Shown here piece by piece: positions 22,459-57,914 of a stretch of DNA of 64,000 bases. A model generated the notes under the pieces. It saw only the letters and a program-made list of their open reading frames with translations, did not search any database and had not been told where the DNA came from. Within the stretch, counting starts at the first letter, position 1, and each line of letters opens with the position of its first letter. The DNA is from Cerrena zonata (Eukaryota; Basidiomycota; Agaricomycetes; Polyporales; Cerrenaceae), in NCBI GenBank assembly GCA_038087015.1, contig JASBNA010000005.1:868001-932000 (forward strand). The letters are read 5' to 3'. Made by a program: the position numbers and the translations under genes.

Positions 22459-23574
22459 AGGGATGGCGACTGTTGAGAAAACACCCAAAGCTCCGAGCCT
22501 ATAGAGACGACCCCTTCATGACGTATCACAATACTTGTATATACCTCCACATTTCTTTTCCAAATCTTACCCAAGTTCAAGGATAAAATGTCAGTCGAGT
22601 TACGCCTTCCTTCAGACGTTATATAAATTAAGTTGGACAAATTCATCATTTGGCACACATGTATTACGAACATAGGGCTATTGTATGTTTGAAATAAAAT
22701 CCGAGAAACTGAAATACACAATATTGGAGATCTTATACCGTTATTATATCAAATAGACCAGATCTTCCCTTCGTATACACAAATTCCAGCTCCTTGAAGT
22801 AGAGAGCAGGATGCGATGCTATAGCCTTCTGAATACTTGGCAGACTCAAACAACCGGTCAGGGGGAAATGCGGGGCATTATGCATTATGGCCCACCACTT
22901 CCCTTTCTCGCTTGGCAGTTGTTTCATTTCATTATGGGTGGAGCATATTACGAGTTAAGATACCTCACCGTATAGCTTCTGTTGTCAACTAGTGGAGAGA
23001 ACCTGTCATATCGTCTGACTCGGACTCGGAGGGGTAGAATTTTTAGAATACTTGGCAACGAAAGGGTCACTTGCTGGTATGCACACTCGGATCGGGTGCG
23101 TTGGTTGCATTATACCATGGTTCTCGCGCTATATACAGCGTGTTCTGATCACGAATTAGCTTCCCTCGAGACTCGACTTCGAGCGGCGAGCCCAAAGCCG
23201 TCTGGGATGTGGGTAGAAACCCACGGCTCAGCGTCTCCGTATTTTATAGTGTTTTTTTGAGGATAGGCGAGCGTAAGGTCGACACATAGCTGCGAGCACA
23301 AATTTACCGACATATGTTGTTAGCAAGGGATGTTTGCAGGTTAAATGAAGATAGGAGGAATCCAACACTTTTAAACATTGAACCTGAGTTGTCACCGGAA
23401 ACATCATTCTACATGTGACAGCGTGTGACACAAGTAGTGTGAGAGTGTGACACATTGGTAGACGTGACAAGGTTAGACGGTCGGCCAGTCAGTCGCCGTG
23501 TGCACGATCATTTCCTTGCTCACCACCGTCCCCTTCAACGACGACGACGAAGACGACCGCTCGGGGACTCTCTT
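22459..23574. other. Intergenic before the GH16 gene
   Basis: Holds one short minus ORF (22733-22927) of unknown worth and, near the right end, an in-frame upstream ATG (23455) that could extend the GH16 protein by 40 basic residues. I regard the latter as leader sequence. Confidence 0.4.
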
Positions 23575-26311
23575 ATGTCGACACCATGGCCAGCATCTGT
23601 GGACAGCGGAGAGAACCCTTTTGCTAGCGGTACAAGCACTCCAGAAGAGAGAGAGACACAATTCACCTCCCCGCAGACCCCCCAGACATCTACCTTCGAA
23701 TCACCTCTCTTGCCCCAAGATGCTCGGGAACCTCAGTCACCCATTAGGGCCTCTTCGCGGTCGTATTCGGCCAACAACTTTGTGAGCTCACCGCTCAACC
23801 CCAAGTCTACCATAACCAGTGCTATTCGGTCGCGTCCCGTTTCAAGAGGAAGCACCTATTTCAACCGCATTGCTTCGGAAGAGTCACAGGCTCTTGCGTC
23901 CCAATTCTCAACCATGACCGCGGGGAACAGAGGCTCTATGGTTCTCTATCGTCTGGCTGGCGAGGACGACGCTCTCCTACCGCCCAAACCGCTGCATAAT
24001 CGTGATTCTGTTGCTTCGTCGTCTGGTGACTCTATTTTCTCGCTTTCGTCAGATTCGAAATATCCCTCGGGGGTGGTTACCGGACAGCGTGGATTCATAC
24101 CATATGCCTACGACCCAGACCTCGATATGAAAGAAGGCGCAGATGACGACGATGATTATCTACATAGACCTGATTATGGCGAGGACAAGCGTGCGCTTTG
24201 GTCATGGCGTGGAATCTCTAATATCGGTGTTCTCGTTCTCCTTATTGGTGCTCTCCTCACACTCTTCATCTGCTACCCCGTTCTCGTCTTTGTAACCACC
24301 AATGCGCGAAACCTAGCCATTGACGGAAATATCCGGATTAATGGCACTGGTCAGGCACCTGTCCTGTATGTCCAACAAAGCTGTCTACTTTTTGTTGGTA
24401 TCCCATATTGATTGACTGTGCCGTTACCAGCTTCCAGCTACCACAGGTTATCGATCCTGATACGCCTGAAGACGCAAAGACACGAACCGGATTTGATGGA
24501 GAGCCATATGAGCTAGTTTTCTCAGACGAATTCAATGTTGATGGACGGACATTTTACCCCGGCGATGATCCTTTCTGGGAGGCACAAGATATCTGGTACG
24601 GAGCTACAGCTGATCTGGAGTGGTACGACCCATCACAAGTCACTACAAAGGATGGCAGTCTTCGTATTATCATGGAATCGGTCACCGATATCTCACAGAA
24701 TCACCAACTGCAGTACAAGAGTGGTATGCTTCAGAGTTGGAACAAATTTTGTTTCACAAGTGGGTATATCGAGGTCTCTATCACACTCCCTGGCCCAAAC
24801 TCCGACACTCAAGGATATGTCAGTGGTTTCAAATCTCCCTCGACAGTTCTGTGCCTGACTTCTGTTCTAGTGGCCTGGTGCGTGGACGATGGGAAACCTT
24901 GGGCGTCCTGGGTATGGAGCAACTACTGACGGCACCTGGCCCTACTCGTATGTTCATTATCGCACCTTCTTTTCACATCATGTTCCAACCGCAGTCGTCT
25001 TCGTTATCCGTTTTTAGATATGATGATTGCGATCTTGGGACATTCCCCAACCAGACTTTGAAGGATGGATCGGGACCAGCGGCGGCGTTACATTCCGATA
25101 AGTCTAGGGAGAAGTACAACTTCGAACTCTCCTGGCTTCCTGGGCAAAGACTATCGTACGTATTACCTCTTCCCTTCGTTCATTTAGCCACAATTCGCTA
25201 CAGAACGAAGCTTATGATAAGCTTTGACTTACGGGGTCGTATAATTTCTTTGTAGGGCTTGCACCTGTTCGGGAGAGGATCATCCCGGTCCGACCGTGGG
25301 CAAAGGACGTGGAGCACCCGAAATTGATATTTTAGAAGTTGAGAAGAACAAGACGACAAACAGCAACGGTCAAGTTGTGTCCCAATCGGCACAATTTGCC
25401 CCGTTCACGCATGATTATCTCTACGCGAACGACACTCAGGACGCTTGGTGGATCTACAACTCTGAGATCACACATGCTAACGATTATAAGGGTTCTGCGG
25501 TGTAGGTTTCACTACGCTCTAACCAGTGGCAACTCTTGAGCTAATGGGAATATTGGGTAGTCAACAAGCTGTCTCAGCTCTCACTAACCTACCAGATGAC
25601 ATGTTCCAAGGGGTTACAAACAAGCAGTTCCACACGCTAGGTTTGTTCGACTCCCTTGAAGAGTTGTGTTGTTTTCATTAATCGCGCATCGTAAATTAGG
25701 CTTCGAGTATTGGGCAAATCCATCTAAACCAGAGGAAGGTTTTATTACCTGGCAGACAGATGGCCAACCATCAGTGCGGATGGGTGCCTCGGCTGTAGGT
25801 GCTGACCAAGGTACCGATGGATCAGGTGTCTCGAAACGGCTTATTCCTGAAGAACCTATGGTGAGTCTAATATTCTTTCTCTATTATAAACTATAGTGGT
25901 GTTGACGCATCGACACCCAGTCGATTATCCTGAACTTGGGTATGTCAAGCAATTGGCAGAAGATTGACCTCTCAACAATGGTCTTCCCGGCGGAGTACCT
26001 GGTCGACTATGTTCGAGTGTACCAGCGTAAAGGTCAGACCAACATTGGATGCAGCCCGAAAGATTATCCTACCGCACAGTATATTAATGACCATATGACT
26101 GCCTACACCAGTAAGCTATCATCGTTTACCTTCTCGTTTCTTCTTCCTTATTCGTTCTCTCTCAGACCCTAACCTCACATCGTGGTCGAAAGCCGACCCT
26201 GTGGGTGCAGGTTACTCTTGGCCCAAAAACTCAATGGTATGTTCTCACTCTTCTAGCTCACGGCTTTGGTCTGACCAAAATTCCTTTCAATCATAGTGGG
26301 ATGGCTGTTAG
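23575..26311 (+). CDS. KRE6/SKN1-family glycoside hydrolase 16, beta-glucan synthesis protein
   Basis: Type II membrane protein of the secretory pathway needed for cell-wall beta-1,6-glucan in yeast. Ten exons (23575-24365, 24431-24818, 24871-24947, 25018-25155, 25256-25501, 25561-25640, 25700-25860, 25921-26110, 26166-26236, 26297-26311) keep one frame for 718 residues. A Ser-rich cytosolic N-terminus (about 1-210) precedes one hydrophobic segment (about 213-241). The lumenal GH16 domain starts [10 protein letters not shown]. It carries [14 protein letters not shown] and the catalytic E-I-D-I-L-E near residue 487. The C-terminus is Cys-bearing (I-G-C near the last exons, final D-G-C). I chose the start at M-S-T-P-W because upstream residues are low-complexity basic. 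Confidence 0.94.
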
Positions 26312-31804: not shown

Positions 31805-32671
31805 GTACGCTATATGATCTTCATTCCTAAACTTTCAGTATCTCATCAGAACGAAAGGATACGATATCGACACTCTCGTGACTAACCTCAAGATCGAGAG
31901 AGTTTGATTAGCGGTGTCTATGCAAGTATAGCGGGAGACGTTATAGCACGGACAGTATCAGTCAAGCCCCAGGCCCAAAAGTTTGATAAATTCAGTCGTA
32001 GAATGGGTAACAAGCACGGTAGTCCAAGCAACAGAGCTGACGTGACGTGAGTTAAAAGCCAGGCTTTAAAGCACACTTGATTAAAATATGACACCACACG
32101 CCATCACGATACTACACGTAGGGCAGTGTCAGGAAGCTGGACATAATCCGTAGCAGAGTATCGCAGTTGGCGTAGATAGAGCTATCACAGTAGACAAACA
32201 TCAGCGTATTAGACAAGTCTGATATAATATGAAATCACGCGCGTCGTTTCCCCTGTGAGCCGCAAGGGTTTTTAGTCGAGTGCCTTATAGTGATAACAGG
32301 CACAGGCTGGATATGTTATGCGTAAGTTTTAGGTACATGGTGATGAGACAACGTACTCACCTGTTCTTGCCCCTACACAACCAAGAAAATTTCACCAGTT
32401 CCGCATACCATGGCCATCGCTAAGTCACCAGTGTGTATGGAAACAATACAGTATCGCTAACATGACTGAGAATCTAATTGAACATACAAAAGACGTAGTA
32501 GTAGTACAACACGGTAACAATGTCGGCGACTTCAAATTGAACCGCCATCCAAGCGAAAACAATACAAATTCCAAATAAGGCATCTGAGGTGATCCAGTTT
32601 CCCTCCACCCAAATGACTTCCAGACTAAACCTATCCGACCAGAGGCTCTCTTCGAAAGAAGAGGAACGCAC
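31805..32671. other. Intergenic upstream of the secreted protein, downstream of the repeat precursor
   Basis: No gene supported. Minus-strand ORFs at 32425-32700 overlap the 3' end of the repeat precursor and look like noise. Confidence 0.4.
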
Positions 32672-33144
32672 TTAGACACCGCTCCACCTCTTGGCGGCAT
32701 CGTCCTCGACCAAGTTCCACTTCTTGACGACGTCCTTCTCCTCCAAGTTCCACCTCTTCTCGTTCTCGTTCAAGTTCCACCTTTCGACCACATCCTTCTC
32801 GGCCAGGTTCCACCTTTTGGCGGCCTCGGCTTCGTTCAAGTTCCAACGTTTGTCGTTGGCACTCCACCTCTCCAAATTCCAACGCTTGTCGTTGGCATTC
32901 CACCTCTCCAAGTTCCACCTCTTGGCGACGTCTTTCTCAGCGAGGTTCCACCTCTCAACGACATCGTTCTTCTCGAGGTTCCACCTAGCTCTACAAATAT
33001 TGACGGGGTTAGTATTTTTCAGATACGAGAAGCGGGAGTAACGTACGCATTTGCCTCTCCGGGGACAGGAACGGGGGAGCCTACGGCAGGTAAGACTAGA
33101 GTAAAGGCGACGGCAATAGCAGCGACGAAGGTAGGAAAATGCAT
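32672..33144 (-). CDS. Secreted Kex2-processed repeat peptide precursor (KEP-like), Trp-Asn-Leu family
   Basis: Two exons (33144-33047, 32990-32672) join in phase across a 56-nt GT-AG intron with a perfect TACTAAC branch site, giving 138 residues. Residues 1-22 are a signal peptide (V-A-A-I-A-V-A-F-T-L-V-L-P-A-V-G), followed by a short Pro-rich pro-segment. From residue 35 the protein is only repeats. Twelve units each begin with Trp (residues 36, 47, 58, 63, 70, 75, 82, 93, 104, 113, 124, 135), mostly W-N-L plus an acidic tail such as A-E-K-D-V-V. Every Trp follows a basic residue: six Lys-Arg, one Lys-Lys, four Glu-Arg, one Ala-Arg. Kex2 would release short W-N-L peptides. No Cys and no CAAX end occur, so it is not a classical basidiomycete pheromone. 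The plus-strand ORF over it is a shadow. Confidence 0.82.
32834..32905 (-). repeat. Two tandem 36-nt coding repeats inside the peptide precursor
   Basis: Residues 58-69 and 70-81 (W-N-L-E-R-W-[N/S]-A-N-D-K-R) are near-identical at DNA level, differing at a few positions. This shows recent unit duplication. Positions are approximate to a few bases. Confidence 0.7.
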
Positions 33145-33296
33145 TGTTGAGTTTGGGCTAAGATACAATAAAATACTATGATTAGTATCATATAACGGAG
33201 GTGATGCGAGGAGGCTTACTTTGAGTATATACAAGTGAGTTAGGGTTACGAGAGGTAGACTGAGATAAGTCGTGTAGACTTCATTCAAAGCGGCGT

Positions 33297-33306
33297 CCTA
33301 TTTATG
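33297..33306 (-). promoter_or_regulatory. Candidate TATA box of the repeat precursor
   Basis: Minus strand reads CATAAATAGG about 155 nt upstream of the ATG at 33144, the only TATA-like element in the 300 nt upstream. Confidence 0.4.
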
Positions 33307-41885: not shown

Positions 41886-44800
41886 CTAGTAGCCGGTAGG
41901 TCTTGCGCCTGTCTTGGACGTATCATACGCTCGAATTATCCTCGCCTGATCCTGACGTGCGGCGTTCTCAGTTTGACTGAATGCGAAACCCCTGTTTCGC
42001 CTCATTCGCTGAACCGCCCGGACTTTCTTGATAGCCTTTTGGAATCTAGAAAAAAAAAGTTTTTTGGTATATGTATGATGATTAGTAAACTAAGAAAACG
42101 TACTGCTCTTGTCGGGGCCTATAATCAGGAATATTGTATTTCTGGATTTCTTGAGCTATATGATATGTCTCTGGCATGTAGGTGCGGCGGTAGCTGAGAA
42201 GGAATAATGATCAACCCAAACAAAGAATTAAGGATAATGAAAGAGCTCACTATTTCCAGGCAAAGTCTCGAGAAAGGCAGAATATTGGAACGAGCAGAAG
42301 AACGAAGTAGAAGACGCCATCGGTCCACAGCCGAGGGACAATCCCACGATACTCGGTGGAAAAACCGATCGCGGGTGCAACGACGGCGTATAGCGGTAAA
42401 AAGAGCATAGTAAAGAGGAAAGAACCAGGGATGGCTATATACACCGTCAGCTCAAGCGAAATGTGGTTAGAAGATCGAACATACCAGCAACAGTATATTT
42501 GGTCCATAAGCTTCATACGGTTGTGTCAACTTATGTTTTATACGATGAGCATGGTGCAATAGGACTTACTCTGAGATTAAAGCAGCTTTACCGAGGACAG
42601 TCAATAACACAGCCAAGTACAGGGTCGTGCCCCAGAACCAATGTCCCGAATCAAGCCCAGAGGCTTGCTTCAGATCACCCCAGAAGAGAATGACCGAGAA
42701 ACCGTATAAAATCTAAAAAGTAAACGTCAATGGTTGTCCTAAATATAGACAAATATAAAATAAGACTTACGACACTGTGATATAATGCATTACCAACCCA
42801 CAGCCAGAACGAGGTTCGAGAAAAGAATGCGTTCCTTTGTCCAAGCATGTAGAGTTGGGGATACCGATCTAGGATACGAGCAGAGACGAATTGATCGAAT
42901 ATACCGATGACTAAAGGTGGTAGAACAGTGAAAACCACGTTGTAGAGGGAAAGAGTCCACGACTCATAGGCAATTTGACCAGAGAAATTGTTAAAGAACG
43001 AAAACTGTAGAAAGGTTAAGAGGTGATTTAGCACTTGAGAAAGACACACGTACCCAGAACTGTGTCGTGTAGAGCACAATATTCTTGTAGAAAGAGTCTA
43101 TCGAATACGGAAAATGTCAGTAAAGAATCGACGGAGCGAACAAATGAGACGAACATAATATAAGTTTCGATAGGCGAGTATAACTCCAGGTTCCGTGAAC
43201 GAGCAATAGCTTCTTCAAGAATCGGAACTGCGAGATGGCCACATCAGCAGAACGAGCCGCTTGCAAACCCTAAAGAACACCATTAATCCTGTATCTAGTA
43301 ATTCATTCTATAACCGTACCTCAACACCCGAAATACCGACTCCAACGTGAGCAGCCTGGATCATACTAACGTCATTCGCACCATCGCCAATAGCTAGCAA
43401 AATTGCTTTCTGGTTCTTCTTTACAAGCTTGACTACCAGTGCTTTTTGCAAAGGCGAGACACGACAGCAGATCACGGCTTTACACATGATGGCGAGCTCA
43501 AGGAAGGTTTTGGAAATTTCCTTCTCCAATGCGAACGTCAGACTCTTGCCATCTAAAACATCACTGAGTAGGCGTTTACAACGTCAGCAGACTCTGACTT
43601 ACCGATGATCAACGCCAGGTCTTCGAGTTCACCGGAGCTTCGTTGACTTCGAATAGCAGCTAGCCGTTTTGACAGGAAGTCATTGGTTTCATGTGACGTC
43701 TCTTCATTGACGATAACCTAATAGACGATAAGGACGAAGTTCAGAAATGAATATCAGATAGTTACCAAGTTCATGGACTCAGAAATGAGTTTACACGACA
43801 TTCCAATATTGATAGCAGTCTCTTGACGATCACCGGTCAAGACCCAAACTTTGATGCCAGCCATTTGGAGTGTGTGAATCGTGTCTGGGACACCATCCTG
43901 CAGCTTGTCCTCGATAGCAGTAGCACCAAGCAAAAACATATCTTTCTCAATGAGCTCAGCAGCCTTGTCCAAGGCCTCTCCACGACCATTGATAGTCGCT
44001 GCAGCCTGGTCATAGACTGTAACCCATTGTCGGTATTCAGCTTCTGGAATATCACGGTAGGCAATACACAGAGTTCGGAGGCCCTCGGTTGCATAGTCCT
44101 TATCATCAATAAGTTAATGAATTTGAAAGACAAGGTTAGATTCAAAAGGCCACATACCTCAAGATGAACAAGAGTCTTCTCCGTGTACGGTTGCCTTTCG
44201 CTGAGACGTTCTAGAATGACTGTGTCAGCACCTTTGCAGTAGAGCTTGATTCGACCATCGGGTCCCCGAACGATAGTCGACATCCGCTTCCGTGTGGAGT
44301 TGAACTCGCAAACGTTGAGAATTTGATATTCCAACGATGCGCCCATAATGTTGACAAAGACAGATTTGGGTTTACGAGTCTGAAACAAATAGCCTATCAG
44401 TACCTAAATCTTAATTATTAAAAAATGAAGGACGTACATGGAACTGATATCCGAGAATCTCTGCACCAGCTACGAGAGCAGCTTCGTCCGGACTACTCGC
44501 CTGATAGTGCATCTTGCCATCTCTGTTCTCCGGAATGACCGTATGACAGACTGCAAGAAGGGTCAAGAATTCATTGATAGTTTCCCGTTCCTTATTCGCA
44601 TTCGAGGCAGAGCCTACGTCAACGAAGGGATTGGCTCCATCTTCCAATATGGCCTTCATCTCCGCGAACGTCCTCCAGCCATCACGACCATCTTCACCCT
44701 CGCCACGTTTGCTTTCGTCCACGACATCGGCATAGGCGAAACCAGCTATTGAGCAACAGCGGAATTCCATCTCGTTACACGTCAGAGTACCTGTTTTGTC

Positions 44801-46779
44801 ACTAAAGACATATTCGATTTGACCCAGCTCTTCTACCAGTGATGATGTTCGGCATGTCGCAGGTGTGTCGGTCTTTGCATAGTACATATCCAGATCAGAG
44901 TTAATAAGCTGTGCCTGTTGGAATTTCACGACTTCCATAGTGACGATGAGGGAGATGGGAATCAAATTGTTGTATAGGATGATGAATGTCAAGATATCTG
45001 TCAAGGTGTCAGAGAAAATTCCTCCCATGCGATATAATGCGACTGACCTTCGATAAATTCCTTCGCTGAAGAACAAGTATGTTAGCAATATTTAAAAATT
45101 GTAATGAGGAGTATTTACCCCTGCCGCTTATTGACGGAGTCTCGAAAAGATACCATTGTTGAGATGAGAAAAACCACTGAGAACCATTTCCAATATTTCA
45201 GTCGGACATCCTTCATCGAAAATAATAGATGAAAACTGACGGATCTGATGCTGCTTCCAACTGTTGACCCTATCGACAGTGCAAGGAGCAGAATAAACAG
45301 GAAGACAATCTGCACATTGACTTGTCGCTCAACCGCCGTCCTCTTGATCGGCGCAGCACTATGTTCCGAATCCCGAAGCGTTAGGCCAGAACCAAGCTAT
45401 AATTACTTGATTACTCACGTCGCATTTCGCATCAGCTTTGTCTCGTGCCCCGTAAAGACGACCATACCATACAGCCATGGTGTATTCCTAATCTGCGCAC
45501 CTCGCAACAGCATCTGATCAGGACCCAAAGGTATCGTTTTTGGCACACCCATATCACTAGTAAGCTCCAGTGTACCCTCGTAGGTATACAACGAGTTATT
45601 CGGATGTTCTGAACGCAGTGTACCATGGAGAGCAGTTACGAGATTCGGAGATGTCAAGGGAGCTGTCTGAGGGGACGCTTGCTTGATCTTCAGGTTGGTT
45701 TCACTGGTGAATGGGATGAGAAGTTATGGAAAGGCGGCGACAGAGACGACTGACCCGTCAAGATTCGAAGTTTCGATGTAGCAGAAACCCTCTGGTTCAC
45801 TCGAGGCGAGAAGAATGAGATCTGCGGGGATGGGGTCGTCACTCTCGAGCCGGACGACATCACCAACCCGAATGTCTTTCCATTTCCGCTCCTCGAAACC
45901 GCCGGTCTGCGTCAGTACTTTCGCTTTGCGTGCGTTGAGCTCCGAGTCAGATTGGTGCCGTTTCTGTATTCATTTAATGAGCAGAATCAATAGTTGTAGT
46001 TGGTGTATACATACCAAGTCCTCCTGAGTCTCCTTGAATGCTGAGGCAAGAAGCACCACCGACAGGGGTGCAATGGTGGTATACTTGTTTGTCGGCGACA
46101 CATCTGGGATCTGTTGTATGCACGCAGTGAACAAGAAGAACAAATTGGCATATTTCGAGAATTGCTCTATTAAAAGATGAATACATCAGCAGCAGTTGTA
46201 CCACAGACTAAACATAGAACGCGCACCGAAGAAGAACTTGGGCAAGAATGTCGCAACATTATACTTGCTCGTCGAGACGTAGTTCGAGCAATATGCCGAG
46301 TTCGCAGGAGGGTTGTTCAATGCAATAACCCGTTCTCCCTCCAGACGTTCCTCCTCCTTATTCCATGGCCACTTCCATTTCTTCGCTGGTTTCTTGAATT
46401 TCTCCTGCGGTTTCGACGGCGAAGGCCCCGGAAAAGAAGAAGACCCAGCAAAGGGTTGGGATGTATGAGAGTCTTGAGGGGTATAATCATCCCATTGTAG
46501 CATATCTTGCTCAGGCTGCAGAGTTGACTGAGACGTCCCAGCATGTGGTGCAGCATGTCTAGTTAACGGCAATCCACTCTCTTTGGATTGCATAGCATCC
46601 ACTCTCGAAGGGGCAAATGCAGAGTCAGGCATATCATCTTCGTCGTCAAAGAAAGGGTCTAGTTGTTGCCTGTTAGAATTTGTCGAAGGAGGATAACCAG
46701 AGCCGGGGTTGTTGGCAGGCTGGTATTGTCGAAGCGCGGGGTTTGCTTGTGAAACTAGGCGTACAAAGTCGTCACTCAT
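41886..46779 (-). CDS. P4-ATPase, Drs2-type phospholipid flippase
   Basis: Multi-exon P4-ATPase that moves aminophospholipids to the cytosolic leaflet in trans-Golgi and endosomal membranes. A Ser/Pro/Asp-rich N-terminus is followed by the family entry motif [15 protein letters not shown] near 46230. The TM4 signature N-N-L-I-P-I-S-L lies near 44960 and the phosphorylation site D-K-T-G-T-L-T near 44800. The nucleotide-binding S-S-P-D-E-A-A-L-V lies near 44490, and the hinge [10 protein letters not shown] near 43370. C-terminal transmembrane exons run to the TAG at 41886. Q-I-N-type residues and the N-terminal motif fit the Drs2 subgroup better than Dnf or Neo1. The first in-frame ATG (46779) was taken as start; upstream codons are open but lack ATG. 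All exons seem intact. It probably needs a Cdc50-type subunit. Confidence 0.93.
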
Positions 46780-47045
46780 CGTCACGGACGGCGAGTGAGA
46801 GCGTAGGGGAAATGATGTGAAGCCTGCTTCAAAGCCGTCGTCGTTGTCGTCGCCGTTTGCGGTAGGGTGATTCGTTCGGCTGTGGAAATCACTGCGCCCG
46901 CCCAAACGCGGCTTTTCGCACGCATTCAAGCTCAAGGTTTACATGACGTGAATACCTTTTACAATGCAGAAATATACGACAAATTATACATTATGTACCG
47001 TACACGTATCATAGAATAGGCTTATAGTCTACCTCTACCTGTTGT

Positions 47046-54370: not shown

Positions 54371-57300
54371 ATGAAACGAAATGGATCCGCCTCTCAGAGG
54401 AGCACCAGGGTGCCTTCGCCTACCAACACCACCTATTCAGGCTTTTCAAACTACAGGAATGACAGTTATCGGCCACTGAGAGAGACACCTGCCTCCGTAC
54501 CCTTGCCAGATCCACGTATAATTGCCCGCACACACTTCGATCAGTTACACCGATACCTCGCATCTTATCTTGCCAAAGGTATGCCACACTAGTATTGAGT
54601 TACCTTTGTTAATTGCATCCCGTCTTTATAGAACCTGCAAACTCGCGGTCGACTGCGAGACAGAAACTTACGCGACTTACTCGACAACAGTTCCAGGAAC
54701 TCTCTACAGACGTCTACGATGAGTTGGTCCGTCGACAGAACAATACCACAGAGAACGAAGGCACGTATCTATTTCTTGCCTTTTACAGCTAGTTACAAGT
54801 CGGTAGGCAAGGCCTTCAGCTCTCGGGGCCAGTGTCTAATGGGGTCTTGAAAGTCACGCATTGAAATTGGCTATGACTCCCTTCGACATCCCTTGACCTG
54901 GGATATGTCTATAAACTTGAACCTAGCTCATTATAATTGTTACATATAATTGGACGAAACTGATGGCTATGTAACGTCTAGTTCCATTCCTGCCCGTTCG
55001 AGACGACTTCCACCCGAAACGGAATCAAGCTCGACAGAAGCTAGCCACACTACCCACAAGTCGTTTCAAGGATCTATCAAGTGATGTTTACTACGAACTA
55101 TCTCGACGATACCCTGAATTCAAGGACGATGTTCGTAACCCGGTCTCTATAAATATTCTGATATCGTTAATCTAATCCTTGATAGGCTCCCGAAACACCT
55201 GAGTTGAAGTCCCCTGGATCTACCTATGATGATTATCCCTCCCCGGACTATCCTACGACTCCGCAGAATAAATCTGCACCTCCTTCGGCTCTTCGATCTA
55301 GTCGAGCGTCGGAGGACAGGCCTCCAGATCCGTATAGCGCAAGCCGTCGACCGAGTGAAGATTTCAATTCCTCGCGGCGCAGTGAAGACATCTATGGCGG
55401 AATGGACCCTCCGCCTCCCCCTCCTTCATCTCGCCGGAAACCATCACAAGATCTATACGGTAACGATCGACGGAAGCCATCTCAGGACTCTGCCATCTCT
55501 GGTCGGCGTTCGACCGAAAGAGAATATGGACGACGGCCGAGCGAAAGCGTGAGTACCACCAGTGACTCGACGTCAACGACCAATGCGCAGAGTGCCACGG
55601 CTGGCATGGGAATGATCATTCCGAACAAAAGTACGATTGCCGAGGAAGAGATTGAGGTGCCGTATGGGAGAGAAGTGAGAGACAGTACGGGCACGGCTGT
55701 GGATGAACGAGGAAGGGATAGGGACCGAACAAGTGGGAGAGTAAGAAGTCGAGATTTCAGTCGAGGGACCGATACTGATGCCGATGCCGACGAGCCCATT
55801 GGTGGACTTGCAGGACTCAGTGCAAGACTGCAACAAGTCGAAGGAGATGACGACGAAGAGGATGGCAGAATATCGGGCGCAGGCGCTCGAAGTAATGATG
55901 ATTATTATGACAAGGTGTCATACGGGAGGGCATCTGTTGCGTCGGATCGTTCTGCGGGTGGTGGTGCGAGTAGGGGATATGGAGGAAGAGCGAGTGTGGG
56001 AGCCGAAGATCAAGAGAGAATTCGGAGAGATTATGAATACAAGATCGCAACTATGCAGACGAAGATCGCTACATTGGAAAGGGATTTGGAGGATGCGAGG
56101 GTGAGGGAGCAGAAGGCTTCGGAGAGCGAGAACCGAGTCAGGACATTGGAGGACGAGTTGGATGAGTTGCGTCGGGTGAGTTCTTCGCTCTTGTTAATAC
56201 CTGGGCTTTAATGGTTTAAATGTGCGACTTGGATTTAGGCTGTTGAAGAGAAATCTGCCGAGACGCGTATGCTGCAACAGGAGCTCAGAGAATTACGTGA
56301 AGATCGTGCTCGAGAGAAAGACCTTGCTAATAGGCGCACACGACAGGATGATGAAGAGCTTCAAATCCTTCGCGAGAGATGTGAGCGACTGGAAGCACAG
56401 AATGGTACCCAGGTACGAAAGTTTAATACTCTTTTCTTAACGTTGATACTAAATGCTATTTTAATAGAGAGATCCCGATATTTTGGAACAGCTGCGCGGA
56501 GACATGGAGAACTTGATGACTGAGCTTGATGACCTCGCAAAGAGGAACGATGAGCTCATGACCGCGAAAGACTCTGATCTCGTTGTGATTCGTGACTTGG
56601 ACGCACAGCTTAAGGAGTACAAACGCAAGTATGAGCAAGCGAAGACAGAGCTGCGTAGTGTCAAAGGTAAACATATTTCACTTTTTTCATTCCTTGCGCG
56701 GATCGAGTAGCTGACTTAATCTACAGCAACCTCGCAGCTATTCTTGCAGCCTCCAAAGACGGACGACCAACTCCCTGTCGCCCAAGATGGTGGTGTACTC
56801 GACATTCACGTCACAGCCTTTGTATCAGCAATCGACAGTCTCCTCACCGCAGGTCGCTCTAATGCTCCCACACGAGTTCTCACGCCGATGAAAGCCGTGG
56901 TGAACGCAGTCACAGCTATCGTTGAAGATATCAGGATGTTTGAACGAAGATCCCGCAGGGATCGTAACGAAATCGATACAGACACACTCCATGCTTTGCA
57001 AGACCGCATGGAAGCTACGTTGAGCAACCTGGTGACAGCCTCCAAGACACACGCGACAAGCAATGGCATGTCTCCTGTCAGTTTGTTAGATGCCGCTGCG
57101 AGCCATGTATCTTCCACTGTCACGGAAATCGGCAAGACACTTTGTGTTCGCAAGGCAACCAAGGCGGAGCAAGACCAATTTGTACTGCCACCCCTGTCTA
57201 GTTCTTCGCCTGGAGGCAGTTTCTCGCCAGCCTTGCGATCAGTCAATGAGGAAAGGACGATGCACTTGCGTGGAGGAAGTAGTGCGAGTGTACGCAGTTT

Positions 57301-57914
57301 CGGTATGGGCGAAAGTCGATATTCCGACTTCCCTTCTCCACCACAGGGTAGACCCATGTATGGACGATCTTCAACTGACGAGAAGAGACGACCACCGTCG
57401 AATCCCTCTAGCTCCGATGCTAGTGCTAGCTCACCACCACCCATTTTCGATCACCCAACTTCGCTGAATGGCGTGATGAGCGATGACTCTGCTACTGCAG
57501 AAGGACCTGAGGATGCTTGGTCAGAGCTCAAGGTTCGTGGTATAACAGCGGGCTGAGTGAATTTGTTATTGACGTTTCTTCTATCAGCCGTATCTCGAAG
57601 CTCAGACTGAGGCTATCGTCTATGCAATTCAATCCGTTCTTTCAGGCGTCCGCAGTCCGACTCCCTCACTGCAACTCGCCGAACATATCACACAAATCAT
57701 CACTATCGTGTCCAGCATTGTTGCCGTTTGCAAGGACAACCTTCCTCCTCGATCAGTCAATGCCGGCAAGGACATCCTACGCGAGCTCAGTGACTACGCT
57801 AACACTCTCAGCGAGGTCCAAGCGTATCCCGAAATTACCAAGGAATCTCGACAACTCATGGCCAAGTCCAGTTTCGCTATCGCTAATGCTATGAAGGGTC
57901 TGATGAAACTATGA
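54371..57914 (+). CDS. SPA2: Spa2-family polarisome scaffold
   Basis: Scaffold that gathers formin, Rho-pathway kinases and Rab regulators at growing hyphal tips. Eight exons (54371-54578, 54632-54760, 54982-55130, 55186-56175, 56239-56412, 56468-56666, 56727-57532, 57588-57914) give 993 residues. Two Spa2-homology (GIT) repeats lie at about residues 78-104 and 129-155 (A-R-Q-K-L-x-x-L ... F-x-x-L-S-x-D-V-Y-x-E-L). The middle is a disordered Ser/Arg/Pro region. A coiled coil of about 170 residues follows (exons 4-6, heptads with R-I-R-R-D-Y-E-Y-K and L-E-D-E-L-D-E-L-R). The C-terminal helical domain ends M-K-G-L-M-K-L. Intron 2 seems to use a GC donor at 54761. No lesion is seen. Confidence 0.92.

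Follow-up and report, generated by a model that had tools for sequence, protein, structure and literature searches.

Gene structure and surroundings

The window, by which we mean the whole 64-kb stretch of DNA analysed, carries on its minus strand at 33144-32672 a two-exon gene model with a predicted product of 138 amino acids. Exon 1 (33047-33144, minus strand, 98 nt) opens with the ATG at 33144, encodes a leader and the segment SPVPVPGEAN, and comprises 32 full codons, with codon 33 split by the predicted intron. That intron (32991-33046, minus strand, 56 nt) reads GTACGT...AATACTAACC...TTTGTAG, its middle signal between GTACGT and TTTGTAG being AATACTAAC. Exon 2 (32672-32990, minus strand, 319 nt including the stop) supplies the end of an A-A-R segment and twelve Trp-led units, and closes with the stop codon TAA at 32674-32672, the protein ending in RWSGV.

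The leader is encoded in one frame and the repeat array in another, and the predicted splice brings them together; unspliced read-through of exon 1 stops after YVTPASRI. Other GT-AG pairs also leave open frames, and among the 15 longest products listed is one of 140 amino acids, in another frame, that uses a GTATCT donor. A candidate second acceptor, AGCTAG (32985-32990, minus strand), lies 6 nt downstream of the first and would give a product of 136 amino acids without the Ala-Arg before the first Trp. TTGTAG and AGCTAG together make a pair of tandem acceptors (window 32985-32996) through which this Ala-Arg may be kept or dropped. The first AG downstream of a branch site is the expected acceptor. 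We prefer the predicted 138-residue product over the 136- and 140-residue alternatives because it combines the GTACGT donor with the first AG after TACTAAC, and the splice model as a whole is a prediction from such signals. The spliced gene with a TACTAAC branch site proposed by the sequence-only reading stands up in its splice signals, GTACGT donor included, with leader and array joined in frame. A strict intron pattern matched three times on the minus strand of the window, one match being this intron, and four times on the plus strand. Upstream of the ATG, a possible 5'-UTR intron (33158-33219, minus strand; GTAAGC...TACTAAT...CTTAG) was picked out by eye and falls outside the GTRNGT pattern; a TATA-like CATAAATAGG at 33297-33306 (minus strand) was likewise seen by eye.

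For the surroundings, 40 of 165 selected frames were scanned with Pfam. The matches comprise a weak F-box-like domain, a GNAT acetyltransferase (15.7-17.1 kb), a SKN1/KRE6 beta-glucan synthesis-associated gene (23443-25252, plus strand), a P-type phospholipid ATPase (P4-ATPase; 43840-46938, minus strand), an ABC1 kinase, MBOAT, lipase and coiled-coil matches, and a VBS-like domain (56720-57553, plus strand). None of the 40 scanned frames matched UstYa, a tyrosinase or a methyltransferase, and no receptor family appeared in the scanned flanking frames. None of the frames of at least 80 codons between 28.6 and 36.4 kb has more than two hydrophobic stretches, though a multi-span protein could be broken up there by introns.

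Leader, array and junctions

The predicted protein runs from a hydrophobic leader through SPVPVPGEANAAR into the twelve Trp-led units. The leader, MHFPTFVAAIAVAFTLVLPAVG, is followed by SPVPVP, with an AVG/S-type site by inspection. Its best 19-residue hydropathy is 2.19, at residues 3-21, and the best window past residue 35 reaches -0.47. The protein is likely to be secreted, judging by these features, and the leader and Pro-rich segment described earlier are both in place.

The array, counted from its first Arg (32675-32986, minus strand), makes up 103 of the 138 residues. It reads (R)WNLEKNDVVER-WNLAEKDVAKR-WNLER-WNANDKR-WNLER-WSANDKR, followed directly by WNLNEAEAAKR-WNLAEKDVVER-WNLNENEKR-WNLEEKDVVKK-WNLVEDDAAKR-WSGV. 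The typical core starts with Trp, Asn and Leu and continues into a variable, mostly acidic tail, with unit lengths of 4, 5, 7, 9 and 11 residues and DNA repeat periods of 33, 36 and 60. The sequence-only reading had counted twelve Trp-initiated units, seven of them after Lys-Arg or Lys-Lys; both counts and the gene coordinates proved right. It had also claimed a lack of Cys, Tyr and CAAX, and we find neither Cys nor Tyr anywhere in the 138 residues and no CAAX at the C-terminus. With its RWSGV end, no Cys and no C-terminal CAAX, the protein was rejected as a basidiomycete B mating pheromone.

In order, the P2-P1 pairs before the twelve Trp are AR, ER, KR, ER, KR, ER, KR, KR, ER, KR, KK and KR, which amounts to six KR, four ER, one AR and one KK; seven of the 12 junctions are dibasic and five are not. 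Every Trp of the array (12 of 12) follows Arg or Lys, and each of the 11 Arg in the repeat region stands directly before a Trp. On the other side of the junction, P1' is Trp throughout and P2' is Asn (10) or Ser (2), with Glu at position 4 after the junction in only four of 12. No composition-preserving shuffle among 200,000 placed all 12 Trp after Lys or Arg (the shuffle maximum was 10), and a dibasic-pair count of seven was reached in 26,743 of the 200,000; the placement is unusual, but the count of dibasic pairs is not.

Before Trp, AGG is the codon at nine junctions and CGT at two, with a Lys codon (AAG) at the remaining one; Arg persisted at the junctions through a change of codon. Several codons are likewise in use for Asn, Leu and Val of the array. 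The ER junctions are encoded by GAG or GAA followed by AGG, one A-to-G step from KR.

Coding constraint among the copies

Copies in the array stem from tandem duplication and hence are not independent, which makes pN/pS a better argument than the shuffle test. Computed between the six 11-residue units with a column bootstrap, pS was 0.555 and pN 0.216 in the coding frame, a ratio of 0.39 (bootstrap 0.18-0.71); the remaining two sense frames gave 0.96 and 0.95. The antisense frames gave 1.05, 1.33 and 0.41 (bootstrap for the last, 0.25-0.70). Because the antisense frame at 0.41 has its third (wobble) positions in common with those of the sense frame, and because the long antisense open frames of 197 and 121 codons have no Met, we take the constraint to belong to the sense frame and to act at the protein level among copies. 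The 197-codon antisense frame (window 32588-33178, plus strand) is rich in VPP-type repeats and is a shadow of the repeat.

Relatives, copies and published text

The protein homologue search reaches proteins of similar length that share exact 5-residue words. Within that reach, the whole 138-residue query drew 356 word-sharing candidates and exon 2 drew 49, none with E <= 10 in either case. The same collection, queried with the neighbouring ABC1-kinase exon, returned 1292 relatives; among the 120 of these listed, the best named were Hermanssonia centrifuga (69%) and Taiwanofungus camphoratus (63%), both Polyporales, the third named was a record of Pleurotus ostreatoroseus (Agaricales, 65%), and another relative was 97% identical. 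Going by this one gene, the DNA is taken to come from an Agaricomycete, likely one of the Polyporales. The W-N-L peptide family spoken of in the sequence-only reading thus did not materialize, the protein being an orphan among the 356 and 49 candidates at E <= 10. Pfam returned four matches to the protein, all below cut-offs and none to a pheromone family, and a PDB search yielded no solved structure related to it, the best match having E 1.5.

No paralogue was found in the 55.5-Mb, 171-contig assembly by protein search or by a 4-kb DNA search. The pattern KRW...RW...RW occurs at 13 places in the assembly (control 6), three of them within the repeat gene; the other ten were set aside as unrelated by eye, several being RGG-type repeats in another frame. 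A looser Trp-repeat pattern gave 180 matches versus 130 in the control, with at least 8 in the repeat gene among the matches listed. Within the reach of these searches, the gene is present in a single copy.

Full-text searches with repeat pieces of 5-6 letters returned no fungal-peptide paper by title, and Kex2-processed repeat proteins (KEPs) combined with Polyporales gave no full-text match. The W-N-L motif was not seen in the available text of two KEP surveys (PMC7329392, PMC6339444). As far as searched, a Trp-first core is absent from the literature text; an entry in the survey supplementary tables is possible.

Processing enzymes in the assembly

Kexin P-domain matches lie on two contigs, C24 and C3. 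The C3 kexin exons have a GC content of 0.49, match Pfam peptidase S8 and part of the P-domain, and find yeast Kexin (1ot5) as best PDB match at E 7.4e-73; this contig looks native. On C24, the stretch 547000-554000 has 34% GC and a kexin frame that runs for 885 codons without interruption and closely resembles yeast Kexin, beside a frame recognised by eye that we take to be glucose-6-phosphate dehydrogenase, and we read this stretch as budding-yeast contamination. Peptidase S10 (carboxypeptidase), the family to which we take Kex1 to belong, is matched by 42 frames in the assembly. Dipeptidyl peptidase (DPPIV_N) has six frame matches: those on C19 (45-46% GC) make up one gene in several exons, and C43 (31% GC) and C13 (40% GC) each carry a single long frame. 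STE2 matches occur only on C23, at 37% GC, a yeast-like contig that looks like contamination. The assembly probably contains budding-yeast contigs (C24 34%, C23 37% and C43 31% GC) mixed with basidiomycete ones.

Assignment to the Kex2-processed repeat proteins

We consider it likely, at a probability of roughly 0.8, that the gene encodes an orphan KEP that would be cut by Kex2 at Lys-Arg and Lys-Lys to release several short, linear, Trp-led secreted peptides. One survey counts as KEPs proteins with at least three repeats of at least eight residues between KR, KK, RK or RR sites (PMC7329392), and the repeat protein has six fragments bounded by KR or KK on both sides, 11-20 residues long with the basic pair. 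By our own script, used in place of the published pipelines, it has seven mutually similar dibasic fragments. Another survey sets a minimum repeat content of 15% (PMC6339444), and here the repeats account for 103 of 138 residues. The published counting rules, signal-peptide prediction aside, therefore place the protein among the KEPs, where the sequence-only reading had filed it. In the 166 kb examined, 296 open frames (at least 50 codons) have at least three dibasic fragments and five have at least three mutually similar ones; the repeat gene leads these five with seven similar fragments, the next has six and the other three have three each, the runner-up being a Lys-rich frame that overlaps the C24 kexin gene.

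KEPs occur in Agaricomycetes, and several yield linear peptides by mass spectrometry, according to the text available of PMC9769878. It is probable that the W-N-L array is new in sequence and ordinary in kind, its class being known already in Agaricomycetes. Orphan status is common in this class, because 2560 of 7878 surveyed KEPs are described as having no homologue, with most types confined to one genus (PMC7329392, in the part available). Agaricomycete KEPs from Coprinopsis cinerea (497993, 490115), Lentinula edodes (2599) and Pleurotus ostreatus (1091723), as presented in the available text, share with the repeat protein a leader-like N-terminus and cores between dibasic sites, and they yield linear peptides such as are predicted for it (PMC9769878). 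Their detected peptides, however, end in Trp (-AADW, -PSW) or start with pyro-Gln, whereas Trp comes first in the W-N-L protein; additionally, some of them follow Ste13 XA/XP motifs, whereas the W-N-L protein has no XA/XP after KR, and four of its 12 junctions are ER. Ustilago maydis Rep1 is another basidiomycete example of a repeat protein cut by Kex2 into linear peptides, and these are said to form amyloid-like fibrils and to be attached to hyphae (PMC9769878; PMC6339444, both in part); we liken the two by description, not by sequence.

Predicted processing and possible roles

Signal peptidase would remove the leader in the endoplasmic reticulum, Kex2 in the late Golgi would cut after the six KR and the one KK, and Kex1 would then trim C-terminal Lys and Arg. 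The expected products are WNLEKNDVVERWNLAEKDVA (given cleavage at the first AR as well), WNLERWNAND, WNLERWSAND, WNLNEAEAA, WNLAEKDVVERWNLNENE, WNLEEKDVV, WNLVEDDAA and WSGV. With KR, KK and the first AR cut and with Kex1 trimming, their predicted lengths are 20, 10, 10, 9, 18, 9, 9 and 4 residues, and their predicted net charge is -1 to -3, that of the last (WSGV) being 0. The ER junctions would stay uncut or poorly cut, leaving two Trp in four of the seven longer products, and Kex2 alone would release 9-mers with one Trp together with products of 10 to 20 residues that have two; cutting at every basic-Trp junction would give pieces of 4 to 10 residues. The sequence-only reading foresaw several short W-N-L peptides. 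A mix of such peptides is retained, but because four junctions are ER and one is AR, leaving five of the 12 without a dibasic pair, Kex2 would not be expected to yield twelve equal short peptides.

Two published results bear on cleavage at these junctions. In tests with yeast and Candida, cleaved Kex2 sites were enriched in acidic or small residues at P1' and P2', and more weakly at P4' (PMC2515848, from the part available); the Trp-Asn sites lack the favoured P1' and P2' residues, which counts against efficient Kex2 cutting. When Coprinopsis KEPs were made in Pichia, some products apparently arose from single-Arg cleavage (PMC9769878, in the text available), so that cutting at every basic-Trp junction is conceivable here too. 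The mixed KR and ER junctions may bear on how far single-basic sites count in genome mining.

The peptides may act, as secreted linear forms, on other cells or organisms, a role that is a guess. Six Coprinopsis kep knock-outs are reported without phenotype, and the authors, in the text available, favour a role towards other organisms (PMC9769878); we therefore take such a role as likeliest, with low certainty. A more elaborate proposal, which we regard as unlikely, is that the gene encodes a Trp-led secreted peptide signal of its own, with an alpha-factor-like layout and a non-Ste2 receptor, in which a K-to-E switch at P2 would decide which copies leave as 9-mers with one Trp and which as 10- to 20-mers with two, while the tandem acceptor would gate the cutting site of the first copy. 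Basidiomycete KEP functions are largely unknown, and this precursor adds a Trp-first core with mixed dibasic and Glu-Arg junctions.

Other readings of the gene

The five junctions that lack a dibasic site would suit an intact secreted repeat protein of the cell wall or surface, left uncut, whose basic-Trp pairs serve folding or binding. A strand-like hydrophobic periodicity at 160 degrees (z 3.4 versus shuffles), the sole one of five angles tried to exceed the shuffles, points the same way. Unit lengths of 4, 5, 7, 9 and 11 would nevertheless break any register, the array places Arg at junctions only, and the PDB search offered no related structure; an amphipathic helix was rejected at z -0.6 for 100 degrees. 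We hold an intact protein to be rather improbable. That the open frame is a chance or decaying one over a DNA tandem repeat, and not a working gene, would fit the failure to find a homologue and the open 197-codon antisense frame, but donor, branch and acceptor signals mark a predicted splice that puts the leader in frame with the array, the constraint falls on the sense frame, and neither long antisense frame has a Met, leaving this reading very unlikely. Even less probable is an alpha-pheromone-like peptide that serves mating or self-signalling by way of a Ste2-type receptor. The available literature text gives it some footing: a Hypocrea alpha-type pheromone starts with Trp (WCYRIGEPCW; PMC3068285), the KEP type of yeast alpha-factor is characterised by WXW (PMC7329392), and Basidiomycota have KEPs with alpha-type signatures (PMC6339444). 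Ascomycete alpha-pheromone precursors likewise carry repeated short peptides, Trp-led in some species and released by Kex2. Unlike them, the W-N-L protein has no WCxxGxxCW-type core and has variable tails, and its Trp directly follows a basic residue at 12 of 12 junctions, with Asn or Ser second and without a Ste13 spacer (XA/XP) after KR; moreover, Pfam gave no pheromone match, and the sole STE2 matches are the contamination-like ones on C23, so that no native-looking Ste2 was found.

Preferring a KEP with linear products, we also weighed a dikaritin-kind RiPP precursor, in which UstYa/DUF3328 oxidases would cyclise the cores that Kex2 sets free, perhaps using Trp. Dikaritin precursors (ustiloxin, phomopsin, asperipin) similarly have a leader and repeats between Kex2 sites. 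The assembly has 45 UstYa frame matches, none of them in the 64-kb window; the nearest are a divergent pair on the same contig (C5:938822-939451), ~38 kb from the repeat gene and ~6.8 kb past the window end. A random gene would lie that near UstYa in ~2% of cases (a hand estimate from about 16 loci), and the 20 kb around the pair hold no other KEP-like frame of at least 50 codons. On the other side, the protein has no Tyr, its core tails vary in length and sequence, no tyrosinase was matched in the 40 frames scanned, and unrelated P4-ATPase, ABC1 kinase, MBOAT, lipase and VBS-like genes intervene between gene and pair. Published DUF3328 genes average 3.09 genes from a KEP and lie within 15 genes for 103 of 1680 basidiomycete KEPs (PMC7329392, in the part available). 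We do not count the repeat gene and the UstYa pair as a cluster, and give the dikaritin reading a very small chance; of the role in signalling or as a modification substrate raised by the sequence-only reading, UstYa-type modification has little in its favour, given the missing Tyr and the distance of the pair. Elsewhere in the assembly, UstYa matches at C11:472205-474613 and C124:45150-47558 have identical scores in mirrored arrangement, which suggests an allelic or duplicated contig, and the 430-540 kb region of C11 is rich in UstYa frames.
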